A stretch of 64,000 bases of DNA from Corallococcus macrosporus DSM 14697 (GTDB lineage Bacteria > Myxococcota > Myxococcia > Myxococcales > Myxococcaceae). The translations under genes were made by a program, and so were the position numbers. Where the stretch lies: assembly GCF_002305895.1 (NCBI RefSeq), contig NZ_CP022203.1:2086501-2150500 (forward strand), read 5' to 3'. Positions 8,353 to 58,152 of the stretch are shown in pieces; the first letter of the stretch is position 1, and every line of letters begins with the position of its first letter. The notes under the pieces are model-generated. The model was not told where the DNA came from. It saw only the letters and a program-made list of their open reading frames with translations, and did not search any database.

Positions 8353-9474
8353 ATGAAGCAGCGACAGATTCTCATCACGGGCGGCGCGGGCTTCATCGGC
8401 TCGCATCTGGCGGATGCGCTCCTGGCCCGGGGGCACCGCGTCCGGGCCCTGGATGCCCTGGTGCCCCAGGTCCACGGCGAGGCACGCCAGCGCCCGGAGT
8501 ACCTGTCACCCGACGTCGAGCTCGTGGTGGGGGACGTGTGTGACGGGGACAAGGTGCGCCAGGCCCTCGACGGCGTCGACGCCGTCTTCCACTTCGCGGC
8601 GGCGGTGGGCGTGGGCCAGAGCATGTACGAGGTGGCCCACTACACGGCGGTGAACAACCTGGGCACCTCCGTGTTGATGGAGGCGCTCATCGAGCACCCC
8701 GTCGAGCGGCTCGTGGTGGCCTCCAGCATGAGCGTCTACGGAGAGGGGCTGTCGCGCGCGCCGGACGGCCGCCGTGTCCCCGGCGGGCAGCGGCCGCTGG
8801 AGCAGCTCTCGGCGGGCAAGTGGGAGCTGGAGGGACCCGCGGGCGAGCCCCTCACGCCCGTGGCGACACCGGAGTCCAAGCCGCCCGAGCTCTCCTCCGT
8901 CTACGCGCTGTCCAAGTTCGACCAGGAGCGGCTGTGCCTCATCCTGGGCCGCGCCTACGACATCCCCACCGTGGCGCTGCGCTTCTTCAACGTCTACGGC
9001 CCCCGGCAGGCGCTCTCCAATCCCTACACCGGCGTGCTCGCCATCTTCGGCGCGCGGCTGCTCAACGGGAGCCCGCCGCTCGTCTTCGAGGATGGGCTGC
9101 AGCAGCGGGACTTCGTCAACGTGCGGGACGTGGCGCGCGCCTGCGCGCTGGCGCTCGACGCGGAGGACGCGGTGTCGCGGGTCATCAACGTGGGCAGCGG
9201 CCGCGCCATCACCGTGAGGGAGGTGGCCCGGGCGCTGGCGGAGGTGATGGGGCGGCCCGGCCTCCGCCCCGCGGTGACAGGCCGGTATCGCATGGGCGAC
9301 ATCCGCCACTGCTTCGCGGACATCTCCCTGGCGAGGGACCTGCTGGGTTACGCACCCGAGGTCACCTTCCACGACGGGCTCACCGAGCTGTCGTCGTGGC
9401 TGGAACACCAGGTGGCGACGGACCGCGTGGCCCAGGCGCGCGCGGAACTCGAGGCACGAGGGTTGACCGTATGA
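8353..9474 (+). CDS. NAD-dependent nucleotide-sugar epimerase/dehydratase (extended SDR)
   Basis: The 373-residue protein opens with the NAD-binding motif T-G-G-A-G-F-I-G-S-H. It has H-F-A-A-A-V-G, S-S-M-S-V-Y-G-E and the active-site Y-A-L-S-K (Tyr-x3-Lys), followed by R-F-F-N-V-Y-G-P-R. This is the pattern of UDP- or dTDP-sugar 4-epimerases and 4,6-dehydratases. A 40-residue insertion precedes the catalytic Tyr. It overlaps the next epimerase gene by four bases (ATGA). The roughly 200 bases upstream, after the ABC exporter, hold no gene and may contain an internal promoter. Confidence 0.87.
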   Translation: MKQRQILITGGAGFIGSHLADALLARGHRVRALDALVPQVHGEARQRPEYLSPDVELVVGDVCDGDKVRQALDGVDAVFHFAAAVGVGQSMYEVAHYTAVNNLGTSVLMEALIEHPVERLVVASSMSVYGEGLSRAPDGRRVPGGQRPLEQLSAGKWELEGPAGEPLTPVATPESKPPELSSVYALSKFDQERLCLILGRAYDIPTVALRFFNVYGPRQALSNPYTGVLAIFGARLLNGSPPLVFEDGLQQRDFVNVRDVARACALALDAEDAVSRVINVGSGRAITVREVARALAEVMGRPGLRPAVTGRYRMGDIRHCFADISLARDLLGYAPEVTFHDGLTELSSWLEHQVATDRVAQARAELEARGLTV

Positions 9475-10568
9475 GCGCGGCGGAGCCTTGGACGGGGGAG
9501 GGCGGCAGGACGGTCATCTTCGGTGGGGCGGGCTTCATCGGCTCCAACCTCGCGGACCATTACCTGTCCGCCGGACGCACCGTGCGCATCGTCGACAACC
9601 TGACGCGGCCGGGCGTGGTGCACAACCTCCGCTGGCTCCAGGCCCGGCACGGCGCCCGGTTGGAGGTGATGACGGCGGACGTGCGGGACGCCCAGGCGGT
9701 GAAGCAGGCCGTGGCCGGCGCCACCCAGGTCTTCCACTTCGCGGCCCAGGTGGCGGTGACGACGAGCCTGGAGGTCCCCGTCACCGACTTCGAGGTCAAC
9801 GCCGGCGGCACCTTGAACGTGCTGGAGGCGCTGCGCGCCATGGAGCGGCCCGCCCCGCTCGTCTTCACGTCCACCAACAAGGTCTACGGGGGCATGCCGG
9901 GCGTGGAGCTGGTCCAGGGCCAGCGCCGCTATGAGCCCCGGGACACGCGCCTGCGCAGCCAGGGCGTGGACGAGGCCTGCCCGCTGGACTTCGAGAGCCC
10001 CTATGGCTGCTCCAAGGGCGCGGCGGACCAGTACGTGCTGGACTACGCGCGGGCCTACGGGCTGAGGACGGTGGTGTTCCGGATGAGCTGCATCTACGGG
10101 CCCCGGCAGTTCGGCACCGAGGACCAGGGCTGGGTGGCGCACTTCCTCCTGCGCACGCTCGAAGGCCAGCCCCTGACGCTCTACGGGGATGGCAAGCAGG
10201 TGCGGGACATCCTCGACGTGCGGGACCTGGTGGACGCGCTGAGCCTGGCGCAGCAGCACATGGGGCGGCTCAAGGGCCAGGCCTTCAACATGGGCGGCGG
10301 CCCCACGCGGGCGGTGAGCCTGCTGGAGCTGCTGGGCCTCATCTCGCAGCGCACGGGCCTGCGCCCCGCCATCCATTTCGAGGACTGGCGCACGGGAGAC
10401 CAGCGCTACTACGTCTCCGACACCCGGAAGTTCCAGGCGGCGACGGGGTGGGCTCCGCGGGTAGGGGTTCGCGAGGGCGTGGACCGGCTCCACGATTGGT
10501 TGCGGACGCTGGTGCGGGAGCGGTCGGCCACGGGGCTGGGGGCGGAACGTGAAGTCCACGCGGGCTAG
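9471..10568 (+). CDS. NAD-dependent epimerase, CDP-paratose 2-epimerase-like
   Basis: A second extended SDR of 365 residues. It has F-G-G-A-G-F-I-G-S-N, S-T-N-K-V-Y-G and S-P-Y-G-C-S-K-G-A-A-D-Q-Y (catalytic Tyr-x3-Lys). The S-T-N-K-V-Y-G and Y-G-C-S-K-G-A-A-D-Q-Y pair is typical of the CDP-paratose/tyvelose 2-epimerase group. It is translationally coupled to the previous epimerase, suggesting that the two act in one nucleotide-sugar route. Substrate identity is inferred from family resemblance only. Confidence 0.87.
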   Translation: MSAAEPWTGEGGRTVIFGGAGFIGSNLADHYLSAGRTVRIVDNLTRPGVVHNLRWLQARHGARLEVMTADVRDAQAVKQAVAGATQVFHFAAQVAVTTSLEVPVTDFEVNAGGTLNVLEALRAMERPAPLVFTSTNKVYGGMPGVELVQGQRRYEPRDTRLRSQGVDEACPLDFESPYGCSKGAADQYVLDYARAYGLRTVVFRMSCIYGPRQFGTEDQGWVAHFLLRTLEGQPLTLYGDGKQVRDILDVRDLVDALSLAQQHMGRLKGQAFNMGGGPTRAVSLLELLGLISQRTGLRPAIHFEDWRTGDQRYYVSDTRKFQAATGWAPRVGVREGVDRLHDWLRTLVRERSATGLGAEREVHAG

Positions 10569-51854: not shown

Positions 51855-52021
51855 GGCGGCGGAAGCTAGCACACTTGATTTGCTTGTTTTTGACGTTTAT
51901 GTCGATTTGCGGCACATGCGTTGATACGTATTTGTTGCTTCACATCCGGCGTGCCTGCGACACCCACATCGACAGGCCACATGCCGCATGGCCCCCTCGC
52001 GGTTCGAGGGGGCAGAGGCTT

Positions 52022-52987
52022 TCAGCCCGCGAGCGGCGTCTGCCGCGCCTGGGCCTCGCGCAGCCAGGCCACCGTGTCGCTCAGCGTCTGCCGGTGGCTG
52101 CGGGGCCGGTAGTCGAGCTCCTCGTGGCTCCAGAGCGTCTTGAAGCCCCAGTGGCACGTGGACATCTCCAGCACCACGGGGTCCGGCAGCTTCTTGAGCG
52201 GCACGTGGGAGCCGAGCTTCGCGAGCCCGTCGACGACGAGCGTCGGCACGCCGGGCCGGTTCACCCGGATGCCGGCGACCTCGCCCACGCGCTCGAAGAA
52301 GGTGCGCAGGGGCAGGGCGGTGCCGGGCAGGTGGTACGTGTCCCGCCAGTCCGCCTTCTTCGCCAGCACCGCGAGGGCGTGCGCCACGTCCCGCACATCG
52401 GTGAAGGCGATGCCTCCGGTGGGGATGAAGGGGAGGCGGCCGTTCAGCACGCGGGCCACGTTCGTCGTGGAGCGGCCCAGGGTGTCACCCGGGCCGAGCA
52501 GCACCGGAGGCCGCACCACCGTCAGCGCCACGCCGAGCTGCTTCGCCAGCTTCCGCGACTGCTCCTCGGCGCGAATCTTCGACAGGTAGTAGGGCCACCG
52601 GCCCACGAGCCCCTCCGCGTAGAGGGAGTGCTCGTCCGCCTCGATGGTCGGATGGGCGAAGCAGCCCACCGTGCCGGACGTCGACACCAGCACCAGCCGG
52701 GCGTCGAGCGCCTTGGCGGCGCGCACCATGGCCAGCGCGCTGTCGATGTTGAAGCGCACCATCTCCTCGGCGTGCTGCCGGCTGTGGTGGACCATGCCCG
52801 CGGCGTGAATCACCACCTTCACGCCCTGCGCCCGCGGCAGCCACGCGTCCGGGTCGAGCGGCGTGCCCGACACCTGGGCCACCGCGCCCGGCAGCGGCGC
52901 GCGCACCAGCGCCACCGCGTCGTCGCCCAGCGCCTCCAGGAGATTGCGTCCGAGGAACCCGCTGGCTCCCGTCACGAGTGTCTTCAC
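52022..52987 (-). CDS. Extended SDR, candidate ether-lipid ketone reductase
   Basis: 321 residues from the GTG at 52987, which overlaps the preceding stop (GTGA). T-G-A-S-G-F-L-G-R-N binds NAD(P); the active site is Y-Y-L-S-K with an upstream S-T-S-G-T. The layout resembles 3-beta-hydroxysteroid dehydrogenase/4-epimerase types. It is the last gene of an operon with AGPS and a reductase/acyltransferase fusion. That pathway needs a reductase for alkyl- or acyl-DHAP, so this SDR is the natural candidate, by context only. Confidence 0.82.
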   Translation of the reverse strand: MKTLVTGASGFLGRNLLEALGDDAVALVRAPLPGAVAQVSGTPLDPDAWLPRAQGVKVVIHAAGMVHHSRQHAEEMVRFNIDSALAMVRAAKALDARLVLVSTSGTVGCFAHPTIEADEHSLYAEGLVGRWPYYLSKIRAEEQSRKLAKQLGVALTVVRPPVLLGPGDTLGRSTTNVARVLNGRLPFIPTGGIAFTDVRDVAHALAVLAKKADWRDTYHLPGTALPLRTFFERVGEVAGIRVNRPGVPTLVVDGLAKLGSHVPLKKLPDPVVLEMSTCHWGFKTLWSHEELDYRPRSHRQTLSDTVAWLREAQARQTPLAG

Positions 52988-55590
52988 GGCTGCACCCCGC
53001 GCCAGGCGCACGCTTCATGGAACTGGGAGAGCTCCGCCGCGTTCGGCCCCCACTCAAAGTTGTCACCCGAGGGCTTCACGATGTCGCGGGACACCAGGGC
53101 CTGCACCACGCCATCCAGGTGCGGCCGGTGCGTCACCGCCACGGCCTTCAGCTCGTCGGGCGCGCGGACCTTGGTCGCCTCCTGGTAGTCCCGCACGACG
53201 GGCTCGAAGAGCGCCTTCACCACCGCGTCGACGCGCGCGTCGCTCAGCTCGGCCAGCGGGGTGGCGCACCAGCGGTAGCGCGACAGGTGGTCCTCCAGCG
53301 CGGGGTTGCCCGGCTGGCGCGCCAGCACGTCCCCGGCGAACCAGTGCTGCCACTGGTTCCGGAGCGAGTGCGCCAGGGCCGGGGACAGCGGCGTCGGAAC
53401 GGGCAGGTCGCTGTCCACCACCCGGCCGCCGCGGCGCTCGATGGCGTCACGCAGCCAGGCCTCGTCCACGCCCGGAATCGGGTGCTCGGCGAGGAACGTG
53501 CGCAGGTGGAAGCTGCTCACCGTGGTGTGGCGCTGCAGCTCGGCCATGAGCGTGTGGCTCAGCGCGCGGACGTCGGTGTCCGGGTTGAGCGCCTGCGGCG
53601 CCCCGCACGCGACGTGCACCCGGCCGAGCTGCACCTGGCCCCGCGCCAGCTTCGACAGCCAGGACAGCACGCCGGTGAGCGTCATCTTCGGACGCGGCCT
53701 GCCGGACAGCTCCTCGGACAGGGACGCCTCCTCCGGCAGCCGGTCGTAGGAGATGGCGATGGGCAGCACGACGAACTTGCGCCGCGTGTTCTGCAGGGCG
53801 CGCAGCAGCCCGCGCTTGGGCGGCAGCATCAGCCGCGCGCGGCTGCGCTGACCCTCGACGAAGAACATCAGCGAGGCGTTCTTCTCGGTGAGCCGGCGCA
53901 GCTCCTCGCCCAGCTCCGGCACCTCGCGGCCCACGCCGCGCTTGATGAAGAAGGCCTGTGACTCCTTGAGAATCGGCCCCACCACCGGGATGCGGCCGAA
54001 CTCCTCCGCGGCGGCGATGTGGGGCATCGAGATGCCCAGCTCCGGGTGCTGGAAGCACAGGTAGCTGGTCAGCAGGAAGTCGAAGTAGCTGCGGTGGGTG
54101 GGGGCCAGCACCACCAGCGTGCCGGGGGGCACCTGCGCCATCGCGCGCTCGAAGGACGGCCGGTCGAACGTCACGTCGCTGGTGCAGTGGCGGAACGTCT
54201 TGCGCAGCGCATAGCCGAACACCTTGTGCGTGGCGTTGCCCACGCCGCGCTCCTGGACCCACGCCCGGTCACCGCGCGCGTCGTCGTGCTTGGGGCCGGC
54301 GAAGGACACCTGCGTCTCGTCGCGCGAGAGCAGGTGGCGGTACATGCCCTCGTTCACCACGCGCACGTAGTCGAAGGGGTCGAAGCCGGGGACCTCCAGC
54401 GGCGCGCCGCGCACGAAGTCGAAGGTGTGGTGCGTGAAGTACGAGAAGCCCTCGTTGAGGTACTGCACCTTCTCGTCGGCGCGCACCAGCCGGCGGTGCG
54501 CCTTGCTCTGGCCCAGCAGCGCGAGCGCCGCCTTCTGCAACTGCACCGGCAGCTCCCGGCGCACCAGGTCGACCGTGTCGAAGCCGTGGTCCTTGCGGCC
54601 CACGAACATGTCCGGCGCCTTCACCACGCCGGGGCGGTGCTTGAACCACTCGATGGTGGACGCCGCGGCCATGTCGATGCGCAGCGCGCGCTGCACGCCC
54701 ATGGTGGCGTGGACGATGGGGACGGCCTGGCCGGGCTTGGGCATGGGGCCGAACACCGAGCGCACGACTTCACTGGCGACCACGTCCACGGGCACCACGT
54801 CCAGGCGCACCGACGGGTCCGCGTTGAAGGCGCGCACCACGCCCAGGCCGCTGTACAGCAGGCAGCCCGCCAGCGCCGCCGGGCTGTCGAGCCAGGCGGG
54901 GAAGGGCGTGCGGTAGGCGGCCGAGACGATGCTGGGGCGCACGATGACGACGGGGACGTGGCCGCGCTGCTCGCAGATGAGGTGCTCGGCGACGCTCTTG
55001 GTGAGCGTGTACGTGTTGGGGTGGCCGGTGAGCTCCAGCCACTCGCGGCCCTCGCCCTCGGCCACCTGGAAGGCGGCGTAGAGCTCCGCCGCGGGCTTCG
55101 GCAGGTGCGCCAGCTTCTCTTCGATGGGGCCGGGCCGCCACACGTTGACGTAGGCCGTGGACACGTCGACCATGCCCACCAGCCTGGGGCAGGCGCGCGC
55201 CAGCTCCAGCACGGACAGCGCGCTGCGGATGTTGGCGGAGGTCGCCTGCGCCAGCGGCAGGTCGAACTCCACGCTGGCGGCGCAGTGCACCACGTGCGTG
55301 ACGTGCTGGCGCACGGCCTCCGAGTCCGCGGGGGCCAGGCCGCAGGCGGGCTGCTCCAGGTCGCCGCTCACCACCGCGACGCGCTCCGTCCAGCCGGCGG
55401 GCAGGCGCGAGAAGCACTCCGCCTGCGCCACCTTCGCGAAGCGCTCCGCGGCCGAATGCACGCGGCCCTGGCGGTCCTTCGACTCGCGCACCAGCACCGT
55501 GACGCGCTCGACGCCCTGGGAGAGCAGCGCCTCCAGCACCACCTTGCCGACGAAGCCGGTGACGCCCGTAAGGAAAACGTGGCGGGACAT
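52984..55590 (-). CDS. Fatty acyl-CoA reductase fused to a GNPAT-like acyltransferase
   Basis: 868 residues in two enzymes. Residues 1-380 are a FAR/male-sterility NAD-binding domain: T-G-V-T-G-F-V-G-K-V, active-site Y-T-L-T-K. Residues about 470-720 are a glycerol-phosphate-type acyltransferase: block I T-H-R-S-Y-F-D-F-L-L (catalytic His and Asp), F-F-I-K-R-G, block III F-F-V-E-G-Q-R-S-R, and L-P-I-A-I-S-Y-D-R. H-R-S-Y-x-D-F and G-x-P-R-P-K-x-T resemble GNPAT (DHAP acyltransferase) rather than PlsB. It would make both the fatty alcohol and acyl-DHAP needed by AGPS. Coupled to AGPS by TGATG. Confidence 0.87.
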   Translation of the reverse strand: MSRHVFLTGVTGFVGKVVLEALLSQGVERVTVLVRESKDRQGRVHSAAERFAKVAQAECFSRLPAGWTERVAVVSGDLEQPACGLAPADSEAVRQHVTHVVHCAASVEFDLPLAQATSANIRSALSVLELARACPRLVGMVDVSTAYVNVWRPGPIEEKLAHLPKPAAELYAAFQVAEGEGREWLELTGHPNTYTLTKSVAEHLICEQRGHVPVVIVRPSIVSAAYRTPFPAWLDSPAALAGCLLYSGLGVVRAFNADPSVRLDVVPVDVVASEVVRSVFGPMPKPGQAVPIVHATMGVQRALRIDMAAASTIEWFKHRPGVVKAPDMFVGRKDHGFDTVDLVRRELPVQLQKAALALLGQSKAHRRLVRADEKVQYLNEGFSYFTHHTFDFVRGAPLEVPGFDPFDYVRVVNEGMYRHLLSRDETQVSFAGPKHDDARGDRAWVQERGVGNATHKVFGYALRKTFRHCTSDVTFDRPSFERAMAQVPPGTLVVLAPTHRSYFDFLLTSYLCFQHPELGISMPHIAAAEEFGRIPVVGPILKESQAFFIKRGVGREVPELGEELRRLTEKNASLMFFVEGQRSRARLMLPPKRGLLRALQNTRRKFVVLPIAISYDRLPEEASLSEELSGRPRPKMTLTGVLSWLSKLARGQVQLGRVHVACGAPQALNPDTDVRALSHTLMAELQRHTTVSSFHLRTFLAEHPIPGVDEAWLRDAIERRGGRVVDSDLPVPTPLSPALAHSLRNQWQHWFAGDVLARQPGNPALEDHLSRYRWCATPLAELSDARVDAVVKALFEPVVRDYQEATKVRAPDELKAVAVTHRPHLDGVVQALVSRDIVKPSGDNFEWGPNAAELSQFHEACAWRGVQP

Positions 55591-57485
55591 CAGTGCGCCT
55601 CCTCATCCGGGGTCAGGGCCACCGGTCCATTGATGCCGCTGTTCGACGCGCCAAAGACGTTGTCGGGGTCGATGGCGGCCTTCACCTTGCGGTTCAGGGC
55701 CAGCGCGCCCTCCGAGTACACCTCCGGCAGGAACCCGCGGCGAATCTTGCCAATGCCGTGGTGGTGCGACAGCGAGCCGCCCGCGGCGAGAATCTCCTCC
55801 CGCGCCGCGTGCTCCAGCGCCGCGTACGCGGCCACCGGGTCCGCCACGCCCTTCGCGTAGAAGCCCAGGTAGAAGTAGATGACCACGCCCGTCTGGTAGA
55901 CCTGCGTGAAGCGGCCGGTGAAGAAGACCTTGCCCGGCAGGCCCATGGCGGCGTGCTCCTTCTCCACGCGGCGCTGCACGCGCTCGTAGAGGTCCATGGC
56001 CCGGCTCCACGGCACGCTCGTCTCGAAGCTCTCGGCGATGGCCCAGTGCTCGAAGGTGAGGTCGCGGATGTACGCGATGCCGAAGGTGAGCTGGTAGCCG
56101 CGCTCGCCGTTGGCGCCGCCGCCCTTCATGCCGCCGTGCTCCGCGGCGATGCGGTACACCGTCTTCTCCTGGAAGGCGACCTCCTCGCTCGAGCCTTCAA
56201 ACACGAGCGTGGCCACGGCGAGCTTGTACGGGTCGAAGCCCTTGAGCTTCGTCACCACGGCCTTCTCCACCTCGCTCTTCAGCTTCGCGGCCAGCCCGTG
56301 CTTGGCCGGCTTGAGCGCCTGTCCGAAGTGGAACTGGGTGTTGTCCATCACCCGCACGCTGGCCGGCACCGCGCCGGACTGCTGGAGCGCGTAGAGGAAG
56401 GACAGGCCCGTCTCCAGGTCCGGGAAGATGACCGAGCCGTAGCGCTGCACCTCAGGGAGCGGGAACAGCTTCACCACCGCCGTGGTGACGATGCCGAAGT
56501 TGCCCTCGCTGCCGAACATGTACTGGCGCGGGTTGACGCCCACGCTCTCCCGGGGCGCCTGGCGCGGGCGCTCCACGATGCCCTGGGCCGTGACGACCTG
56601 CATGTCCAGCACCAGGTCCTCGATGTTGCCGTAGCGGTTCTTCTTCATGCCGCTGGCGTTGGTGGCAATCCACCCGCCCAGCGTGGAGAACTCCAGGCTG
56701 TCCGGCTCGTGCCCCATGGTGAAGCCGAACTTCGCCAGCGCCTCCATCAGGTGGCGGCCCGTGGCGCCCGCCTCGATGCAGGCCATGCGGTTGACGGGGT
56801 CCACCCACAGGATGCGGTTCATCTGCCGCATGTCCACCGCGATGACGAAGCGCTCCTCCGCGAGCGGGATGCGCAGCGCCTCCGTCACGTTGGTGCCGCC
56901 GCCGAAGGGGATGACGCAGGCGCCGTGCTTCGTGGCGACCTCCACCAGCCGCACCACCTCATCGTGGCCGCGCGGGAAGACGACCAGGTCCGGCACCCGG
57001 TCCAGCTTCCGGTAGCGGATGGCCCAGATTTCACCGCCCGTGTGGCCGTGGCCCCGGCGCAGGCGCTGCTTGGGGTCGTCCGTGAGCTGCTCCTCCTTCA
57101 GGAACTCGCGCAGCGCGGCCACGAGCTTCGCGTCCTGCTTCGCCGCGGGAATCTCCGGCGGGTAGTGCGGCTCGTTGCGGTTGTCGTAGCCCAGCGGCGA
57201 GGCCAGCTTGCCAGCGAACCACGGCATCAGCTCCGGCAGCTCGACGTTGCTGATGTTGTAGCGGGTGCCCGTCAGGACGGTGTTTCCGTCGGGCTTCACC
57301 ACGAAGCGGGTATCGGCGAAGCCCCAGCCCTCCAGGGACTCCTCGTCCTTGGAAGCGGGCGCCGCGGGCGGCGTGAAGCGCGTGTCTCCAGAGGCGGGCG
57401 TGGAGGGCGAGCCACCGAAGCGCTCACTCACCTCGGTCAGCGCCACATTCCCCAGACGGCGCAGCAAACCTGATTGTTTAGACAT
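55590..57485 (-). CDS. agpS: Alkyldihydroxyacetonephosphate synthase (AGPS)
   Basis: A 631-residue FAD enzyme that exchanges the acyl chain of acyl-DHAP for a fatty alcohol, forming the ether bond. The FAD-binding motif is V-I-P-F-G-G-G-T-N-V; other marks are L-G-G-W-I-A-T-N-A-S-G-M-K-K-N-R-Y-G, the R-Q-Y-M-F-G-S-E-G-N-F-G segment and the active-site run S-L-S-H-H-H-G-I-G-K-I-R near residue 575. These match the AGPS family rather than D-lactate dehydrogenases. First gene of the operon; the ATG at 57485 is preferred to the GTG at 57491. No peroxisomal signal would be expected. Confidence 0.92.
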   Translation of the reverse strand: MSKQSGLLRRLGNVALTEVSERFGGSPSTPASGDTRFTPPAAPASKDEESLEGWGFADTRFVVKPDGNTVLTGTRYNISNVELPELMPWFAGKLASPLGYDNRNEPHYPPEIPAAKQDAKLVAALREFLKEEQLTDDPKQRLRRGHGHTGGEIWAIRYRKLDRVPDLVVFPRGHDEVVRLVEVATKHGACVIPFGGGTNVTEALRIPLAEERFVIAVDMRQMNRILWVDPVNRMACIEAGATGRHLMEALAKFGFTMGHEPDSLEFSTLGGWIATNASGMKKNRYGNIEDLVLDMQVVTAQGIVERPRQAPRESVGVNPRQYMFGSEGNFGIVTTAVVKLFPLPEVQRYGSVIFPDLETGLSFLYALQQSGAVPASVRVMDNTQFHFGQALKPAKHGLAAKLKSEVEKAVVTKLKGFDPYKLAVATLVFEGSSEEVAFQEKTVYRIAAEHGGMKGGGANGERGYQLTFGIAYIRDLTFEHWAIAESFETSVPWSRAMDLYERVQRRVEKEHAAMGLPGKVFFTGRFTQVYQTGVVIYFYLGFYAKGVADPVAAYAALEHAAREEILAAGGSLSHHHGIGKIRRGFLPEVYSEGALALNRKVKAAIDPDNVFGASNSGINGPVALTPDEEAH

Positions 57486-57534: not shown

Positions 57535-57618
57535 GTTACGCAGGTGCGCACCGCGTTACGCATTTTCGGAACCATTGGTCTCGTAATTGGATTGCTTCCG
57601 AGACCCGGAGTCTCGTAA
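57535..57618. promoter_or_regulatory. Four TTACG half-sites between AGPS operon and TetR
   Basis: gttacgca occurs at 57535-57542 and 57555-57562, 20 bases apart. gtctcgtaa occurs at 57578-57586 and 57610-57618, 32 bases apart. The core TTACG is direct in the first pair and inverted (CGTAA) in the second. The spacings are close to whole turns of the helix, and the array fills the divergent promoter region, so it may be the TetR operator. Confidence 0.55.
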
Positions 57619-57627
57619 AGGCACGTC

Positions 57628-58152
57628 ATGCGGACGGGCCGACCAAGAGACGAGAAGGTGCGCCTCGCCATCCTCAGGGCGGCGCAGGAGCTGGTGTTGG
57701 AGAAGGGCTATTCGGCCGTGACGACCGCGGACGTGGCGAAGCGCGCGGCGGCCGGGAAGCAGACCATCTACCGCTGGTGGCCGGGAAAGGGGGCGCTGGT
57801 GCTCGACGCGTTCTCGGAGTGGGTGAGCCAGGCGCCCCGCATGAGCCGCCGCAAGCCTTCCCTGTCCTCCACGCTGGTGGAGTTCTGCCGGGGCGCCTCG
57901 GAGGCGGCGCCCGTCCTGCGGGCGCTGATGGCGGAGGCGCAGTTCGACGAGGACCTCCACCGGAGGCTCATCGCCCAGCTCGTGCGCCCGCGCGGTGACG
58001 AGCTCCGGGCCTGCCTCGCCGACCGCCGCCCGGCCGACCGCGAGCTGGTGGTCAACGTGCTCTCCGGGCTGGTGTGGCAGCGGCTCATGCTCAATGAGCC
58101 GCTGGACGCGCGCTTCGTCCGCTTCGCGCTGCGGGTGGTCCAGCGCATCTGA
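57628..58152 (+). CDS. TetR family regulator, divergent from the ether-lipid operon
   Basis: 174 residues. N-terminal helix-turn-helix: I-L-R-A-A-Q-E-L-V-L-E-K-G-Y, T-T-A-D-V-A-K-R-A, Q-T-I-Y-R-W-W-P-G-K. The Y-R-W-W-P-x-K form of the recognition helix is typical of a TetR subgroup with a TetR_C_11-like domain. It is divergent from agpS and separated by 142 bases containing repeated TTACG half-sites, so it most likely regulates ether-lipid synthesis. Confidence 0.88.
   Translation: MRTGRPRDEKVRLAILRAAQELVLEKGYSAVTTADVAKRAAAGKQTIYRWWPGKGALVLDAFSEWVSQAPRMSRRKPSLSSTLVEFCRGASEAAPVLRALMAEAQFDEDLHRRLIAQLVRPRGDELRACLADRRPADRELVVNVLSGLVWQRLMLNEPLDARFVRFALRVVQRI

Follow-up and report, generated by a model that had tools for sequence, protein, structure and literature searches.

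Does the three-gene operon at positions 52022-57485 of the window (the whole stretch of DNA analysed, 64,000 nucleotides from Corallococcus macrosporus DSM 14697) encode an ether-lipid pathway of the animal type, and is its third gene the reductase of that pathway? All three genes lie on the minus strand, where reading frames and junctions, read directly, agree with the original prediction. The first (55590..57485; ATG at 57485, stop 55592-55590) encodes an alkylglycerone-phosphate (alkyl-DHAP) synthase, AGPS, of 631 residues, the orthologue of Myxococcus xanthus MXAN_1676. The second (52984..55590; ATG 55590-55588, end 52984) encodes a fusion of a FAR and an acyltransferase, orthologous to MXAN_1675 (plsB2), and the third (52022..52987; GTG 52987-52985, end 52022) an extended short-chain dehydrogenase/reductase (SDR) of 321 residues, orthologous to MXAN_1674. 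The stop of AGPS runs into the start of the fusion by one base (TGATG), and that of the fusion into the start of the SDR by four (GTGA). The SDR had originally been counted as a fourth gene; there are three genes, but the number four is correct for the enzyme domains.

A divergent gene for a TetR-family protein (57628..58152, plus strand; PF00440 48 bits, PF16859 38 bits) precedes the operon, which its product probably regulates. Between this gene and AGPS, positions 57563..57620 hold a palindrome, TTACGAGAC-tccgg-GTCTCGGAA, and a weaker second copy about 32 bp off; the half-site blocks TTACGAGAC/GTCTCG are kept in five Myxococcus-type loci. We consider the paired palindromes candidate operators, which might place the operon under lipid-responsive control. 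At the other end, a perfect hairpin without a T run (CCCCCTCG-aaccg-CGAGGGGG, 51992..52012, minus strand), ten bases 3' of the SDR stop, is a possible terminator.

The order AGPS, FAR-acyltransferase fusion and NAD(P)-dependent epimerase-like SDR on one strand is that of the M. xanthus operon MXAN_1676-1674, and its repetition in 32 related loci rules out a chance arrangement. The M. xanthus locus in our set has the same genes in the same order, with AGPS 94% and SDR ~94% identical, so that the operon of the window is its orthologue in another Myxococcus species. The published operon has been described as encoding an AGPS ~42% identical to the human enzyme, a FAR1-GNPAT-like fusion and an NAD-dependent epimerase-like protein (PMC9131029), with MXAN_1675 also named plsB2 and MXAN_1674 likely co-transcribed (PMC4320627). 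As cited in PMC9131029, Curtis et al. suggested its link to ether lipids in 2006, and Lorenzen et al. (2014) and Gallego-Garcia et al. (2019) put it to the test. As genes, order and fusion are the same here and we found no difference of substance, the fused layout cannot be claimed as novel. The operon is already published; what we add is a proposed reaction for its third gene that is specific and can be tested.

In M. xanthus, disruption of MXAN_1676 reduced ether lipids only slightly, ElbD being the main route (PMC9131029). The loss is minor because ElbD carries this main route, which makes the operon a secondary route beside it; the original prediction had named unchanged ether lipids in a mutant as refuting evidence, and this outcome goes part of the way there. 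Inactivation of elbE also lowered ether lipids and was not rescued by elbD; how M. xanthus gets from fatty acid to alkyl ether lipid was described as uncharacterised (PMC9131029). The genome studied here also has an elb operon as well as a CarF/PEDS1 gene (PF10520, E=1.3e-60).

We consider it likely that the operon encodes, as one self-contained cassette, the early part of ether-lipid synthesis, which starts from DHAP, with the SDR as acyl/alkyl-DHAP reductase. The FAR domain would convert an acyl thioester to a fatty alcohol, the fused GNPAT-like domain would acylate DHAP at sn-1, and AGPS would put the fatty alcohol in place of the acyl chain, yielding alkyl-DHAP. The extended SDR would then reduce the sn-2 ketone of alkyl-DHAP (probably also of acyl-DHAP) with NADPH to give 1-alkyl-G3P, which would go on to the usual sn-2 acylation and headgroup steps, with plasmalogen formation by CarF/PEDS1, encoded elsewhere in the genome. 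In the genus, the cassette would operate beside the main ElbD/ElbE route, in which ElbE probably performs the equivalent reduction. The sequences themselves show the genes and their domains, the identity of AGPS, the co-occurrence and the kinship of the SDR; from these we infer DHAP as acyltransferase substrate, the alcohol as FAR product and the SDR reaction.

The assignment of the first gene as AGPS (EC 2.5.1.26) follows from its sequence. In phmmer, the protein matched guinea-pig AGPS (4bby) over residues 18-615 with 557 bits (E=6e-166), and its R378, R474, Y537 and H574-576 align with guinea-pig R419, R515, Y578 and H615-617, residues which are invariant across five diverse bacterial AGPS. 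The substitutions of 4bc7 (R419H) and 4bca (Y578F) are visible in the alignments of PDB entries; R515 and H615-617 we take to be functionally important as well. It is the only full-length AGPS copy in the genome and, as predicted, a clear orthologue; the compared active-site residues are intact. In the AGPS tree, guinea-pig AGPS is 41-49% identical to bacterial AGPS and 32% to Dictyostelium AGPS, which suggests separate histories of the eukaryotic enzymes. AGPS homologues have been reported from many bacterial phyla (PMC11868695).

The fusion carries the two predicted domains, an N-terminal FAR (~aa 1-440) and a C-terminal acyltransferase of the DHAP/G3P type (~aa 441-868). The former matches PF07993 with 196 bits (aa 7-273, model positions 1-256 of 258) and has the Rossmann motif and the YxxxK (YTLTK) of a fatty acyl-CoA reductase; a Pfam scan found no match to PF03015 (Sterile) in this domain, which thus differs from animal-type FAR1. 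The latter matches PF01553 with 72 bits (aa 486-614) and has the motifs H-R-S-Y-F-D and EGQRSR. Two further PF07993-matching frames, of 400 and 674 residues, lie on the plus strand of the window at ~8374-10136 (C1:2094874-2096636). Compared to the animal FAR1-GNPAT-AGPS-DHRS7B (PexRAP) pathway, AGPS is homologous over its full length with the active site kept, FAR and LPLAT domains serve the same steps and an SDR occupies the reductase slot, but FAR and acyltransferase are fused, the FAR lacks a PF03015 match and the SDR is extended, not classical. The description of the pathway as animal-type is therefore loose for the SDR, whose animal counterparts DHRS7B and DHRS7 are classical.

The original prediction named the SDR as a natural candidate for the missing reductase and a lack of co-occurrence with AGPS in other genomes as refuting evidence; in both surveys we made, the SDR does co-occur with AGPS. 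A profile search for AGPS gave 80 bacterial loci in named genomes, 40 of which contain the FAR-acyltransferase fusion. Where at least 700 bases were available past the fusion, the SDR follows it in 32 of 33 loci, the exception being L076; in one locus (L113) the SDR is encoded upstream, on the opposite strand. We rejected a chance position of the SDR in SDR-rich genomes, as the adjacency is kept in these 32 of 33 loci across phyla. Among 195 genomes of Myxococcota, AGPS (at least 48% identity) was found in 20, and the cassette SDR in 19 of these 20 and in none of the 175 without AGPS (Fisher p=2e-25, uncorrected for kinship; the genomes are not independent of one another). In the genus, 15 genomes have AGPS, fusion and SDR, and 12 have none of the three. 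The cassette is thus a widespread unit, found in Myxococcota, Pseudomonadota, Gemmatimonadota, Sericytochromatia and others, and inherited or lost whole. In about 16 untruncated AGPS loci, no SDR could be recognised next to AGPS.

Two same-genus genomes (G119 and G125) contain a second complete cassette, with AGPS 75-76%, fusion 57% and SDR 55-56% identical to those of the window. A Myxococcus-type cassette with AGPS 89% identical also occurs on BNCN01000002.1, a record titled Comamonas sp. KCTC 72670, which is probably mislabelled or contaminated.

In 16 AGPS loci without the fusion, a classical SDR stands beside AGPS, within ~1 kb and often overlapping it (PF00106 in the three of these loci that were scanned). 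None of the AGPS loci has both kinds of SDR at this position (Fisher p=5e-12), and on the AGPS tree the kind of SDR changes about three times, at least two of the changes being forced by starred branches. One AGPS-linked classical SDR has 11beta-HSD1 enzymes as its closest solved relatives; the mammalian enzymes that reduce acyl/alkyl-DHAP, DHRS7B and DHRS7, are SDRs and have been placed near HSD11B1 (PMC13200781). These loci, from Acidobacteriota, Latescibacterota, Spirochaetes and others, resemble the operon in having the reductase gene directly downstream of AGPS, and differ from it in their PF00106 SDR and the lack of the fusion. We favour, with somewhat less assurance than the cassette itself, the view that two SDR subfamilies are interchangeable as acyl/alkyl-DHAP reductase. 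In the fusion cassettes this would be an extended SDR that had no earlier assignment and has ElbE as its sister, elsewhere a classical SDR of the DHRS7B class.

Three loci of the Latescibacterota type (L107:2455-10480, L117:4289-10552, L123:4206-10572) contain a FAR-like gene, a protein of ~650-800 residues, AGPS and a classical SDR. The protein has no Pfam match but an acyltransferase-like HxxxxD motif (PTHQSLLD, PAHQSLLD and PTHRNLLD, respectively), and L107 additionally has PF03015 in its FAR-like gene and an acyl-CoA ligase; from their gene content, these loci possibly encode the whole pathway in unfused form, with an acyltransferase of divergent sequence. In two others (L088:7938-11421, L079:7950-10631) a small PF01553 acyltransferase follows AGPS, and in L088 this is followed in turn by a classical SDR (order AGPS-AT-SDR).

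The sequence of the operon SDR allows a more precise placement. Its best Pfam match is PF01370 (78 bits), with the motif GASGFLG, and its nearest NCBIfam model is HpnA, at 111 bits far under the cut-off of that model; it is not a classical SDR of the DHRS7B/PexRAP kind (PF00106, TGxxxGxG), but an extended one of ~320 residues. Across 22 aligned cassette SDRs the glycine motif, S102 and Y133-Y134-x-x-K137 are conserved, and R29 after beta-2 is nearly invariant. The nearest folds to its AF2 model (pLDDT 93) are Gox2253, cinnamoyl-CoA reductase, kavalactone reductase and dihydroflavonol reductase (DFR). The arginine after beta-2 and these folds indicate an NADPH-dependent carbonyl reductase, the cofactor preference being predicted.

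The closest SDR paralogue in the genome is ElbE (137 bits, the next 38). Cassette SDRs and ElbE-type SDRs form neighbouring sister clades with 33-35% identity, separated at 97% SH-aLRT in a quick tree whose long outgroup branches call for a careful reading, and ElbE-type SDRs adjoin ElbD in 11 of 11 loci examined. We rejected the idea that the operon SDR is ElbE itself, since the two have separate clades and separate neighbours. The elb operon of M. xanthus shares the FAR and acyltransferase chemistry and has its SDR from the sister clade, but it has no AGPS, and ElbD, the main route, is a multidomain FAR-ACS-ACP-AT protein of PKS-like build. As the ElbE route lacks AGPS, a substrate common to ElbE and the operon SDR is not self-evident.

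The main rival for the operon SDR, and a serious alternative for ElbE too, is the reduction of fatty aldehyde: if FAR released an aldehyde, the SDR would complete the alcohol supply, and another enzyme would reduce alkyl-DHAP. This would account for the pairing of ElbE with ElbD, to which i15:0 aldehyde has been linked in M. xanthus (PMC9131029), and it is consistent with the aldehyde reductases and cinnamoyl-CoA reductase among the fold neighbours and with a fusion FAR that lacks the PF03015 match present in the Latescibacterota FAR. We nevertheless consider it unlikely, as the SDR tracks AGPS and not FAR: in 13 of the 16 loci with a classical SDR, no gene adjoining AGPS on its strand gave a FAR-type match of the kind searched for, and L080 has AGPS and the SDR without the fusion, which makes 14 AGPS loci with a classical or extended SDR but no FAR match beside AGPS. 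Conversely, five of the AGPS loci without an SDR have an adjacent FAR. Moreover, the classical SDR that stands in for the extended SDR belongs to the class that reduces alkyl-DHAP in mammals. Co-occurrence, this exchange of SDR classes, the kinship to ElbE and the predicted fold and cofactor site together give good, though indirect, support to the extended SDR as acyl/alkyl-DHAP reductase (EC 1.1.1.101).

The original prediction held that the acyltransferase resembles GNPAT rather than PlsB. Whether ACYLTRANSFERASE is GNPAT or PlsB was judged against specific HMMs that were of the PlsB type, with no GNPAT model among them. If the domain were a PlsB-type G3P acyltransferase, as the name plsB2 implies, the operon would make no acyl-DHAP and AGPS would obtain its substrate from elsewhere. 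PlsB is indeed the top-scoring specific model (NF003441 112.6 bits, TIGR03703 108 bits), and among solved structures the domain family scores higher with bacterial PlsB (9vuq, 113 bits) than with human GPAT1 (8e4y, 95 bits). However, these model matches cover only the catalytic core (~180 residues), far below the PlsB equivalog cut-off of 610-618 bits over ~800 residues. Block I reads HRSYxDF in all 22 aligned acyltransferase domains, but HRSHxDY in both solved GPATs; as a lead, human GNPAT has HRSYIDF there. A text search of the literature for the GNPAT block-I motif returned no relevant paper. As the domain is also fused to FAR in a gene that follows AGPS, an enzyme in need of acyl-DHAP, we regard the PlsB reading as rather unlikely and provisionally favour a GNPAT-like domain, judging by context and by a motif compared with two solved GPATs.

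Least likely of all, in our view, is that Myxococcus reduces alkyl-DHAP with a classical SDR encoded away from the operon (either the PRK06181-type gene at C1:981068-982063 or SocA1) and that the operon SDR acts later or on, for example, homospermidine lipids: the former gene is 41% identical to one AGPS-adjacent SDR and shares an NCBIfam equivalog with some AGPS-linked SDRs, SocA1 was earlier proposed for ether-lipid synthesis (a literature search for SocA and ether lipids gave nothing) and MXAN_1675/1676 are, according to a paper citing Hoffmann et al. 2018, also involved in homospermidine lipids, but the PRK06181-type SDR is present in 24 of 27 genus genomes, with AGPS or without, while the cassette SDR tracks AGPS exactly. 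Its presence regardless of AGPS makes it a possible back-up reductase.

With the extended SDR as the preferred acyl/alkyl-DHAP reductase, the genomic pattern assigns to the third gene a specific reaction that is cheap to test, and extends it to ElbE through kinship. If true, interchangeable SDRs would supply the reductive step that aerobic bacterial ether-lipid synthesis has lacked, and ElbE would be the corresponding enzyme of the ElbD route.
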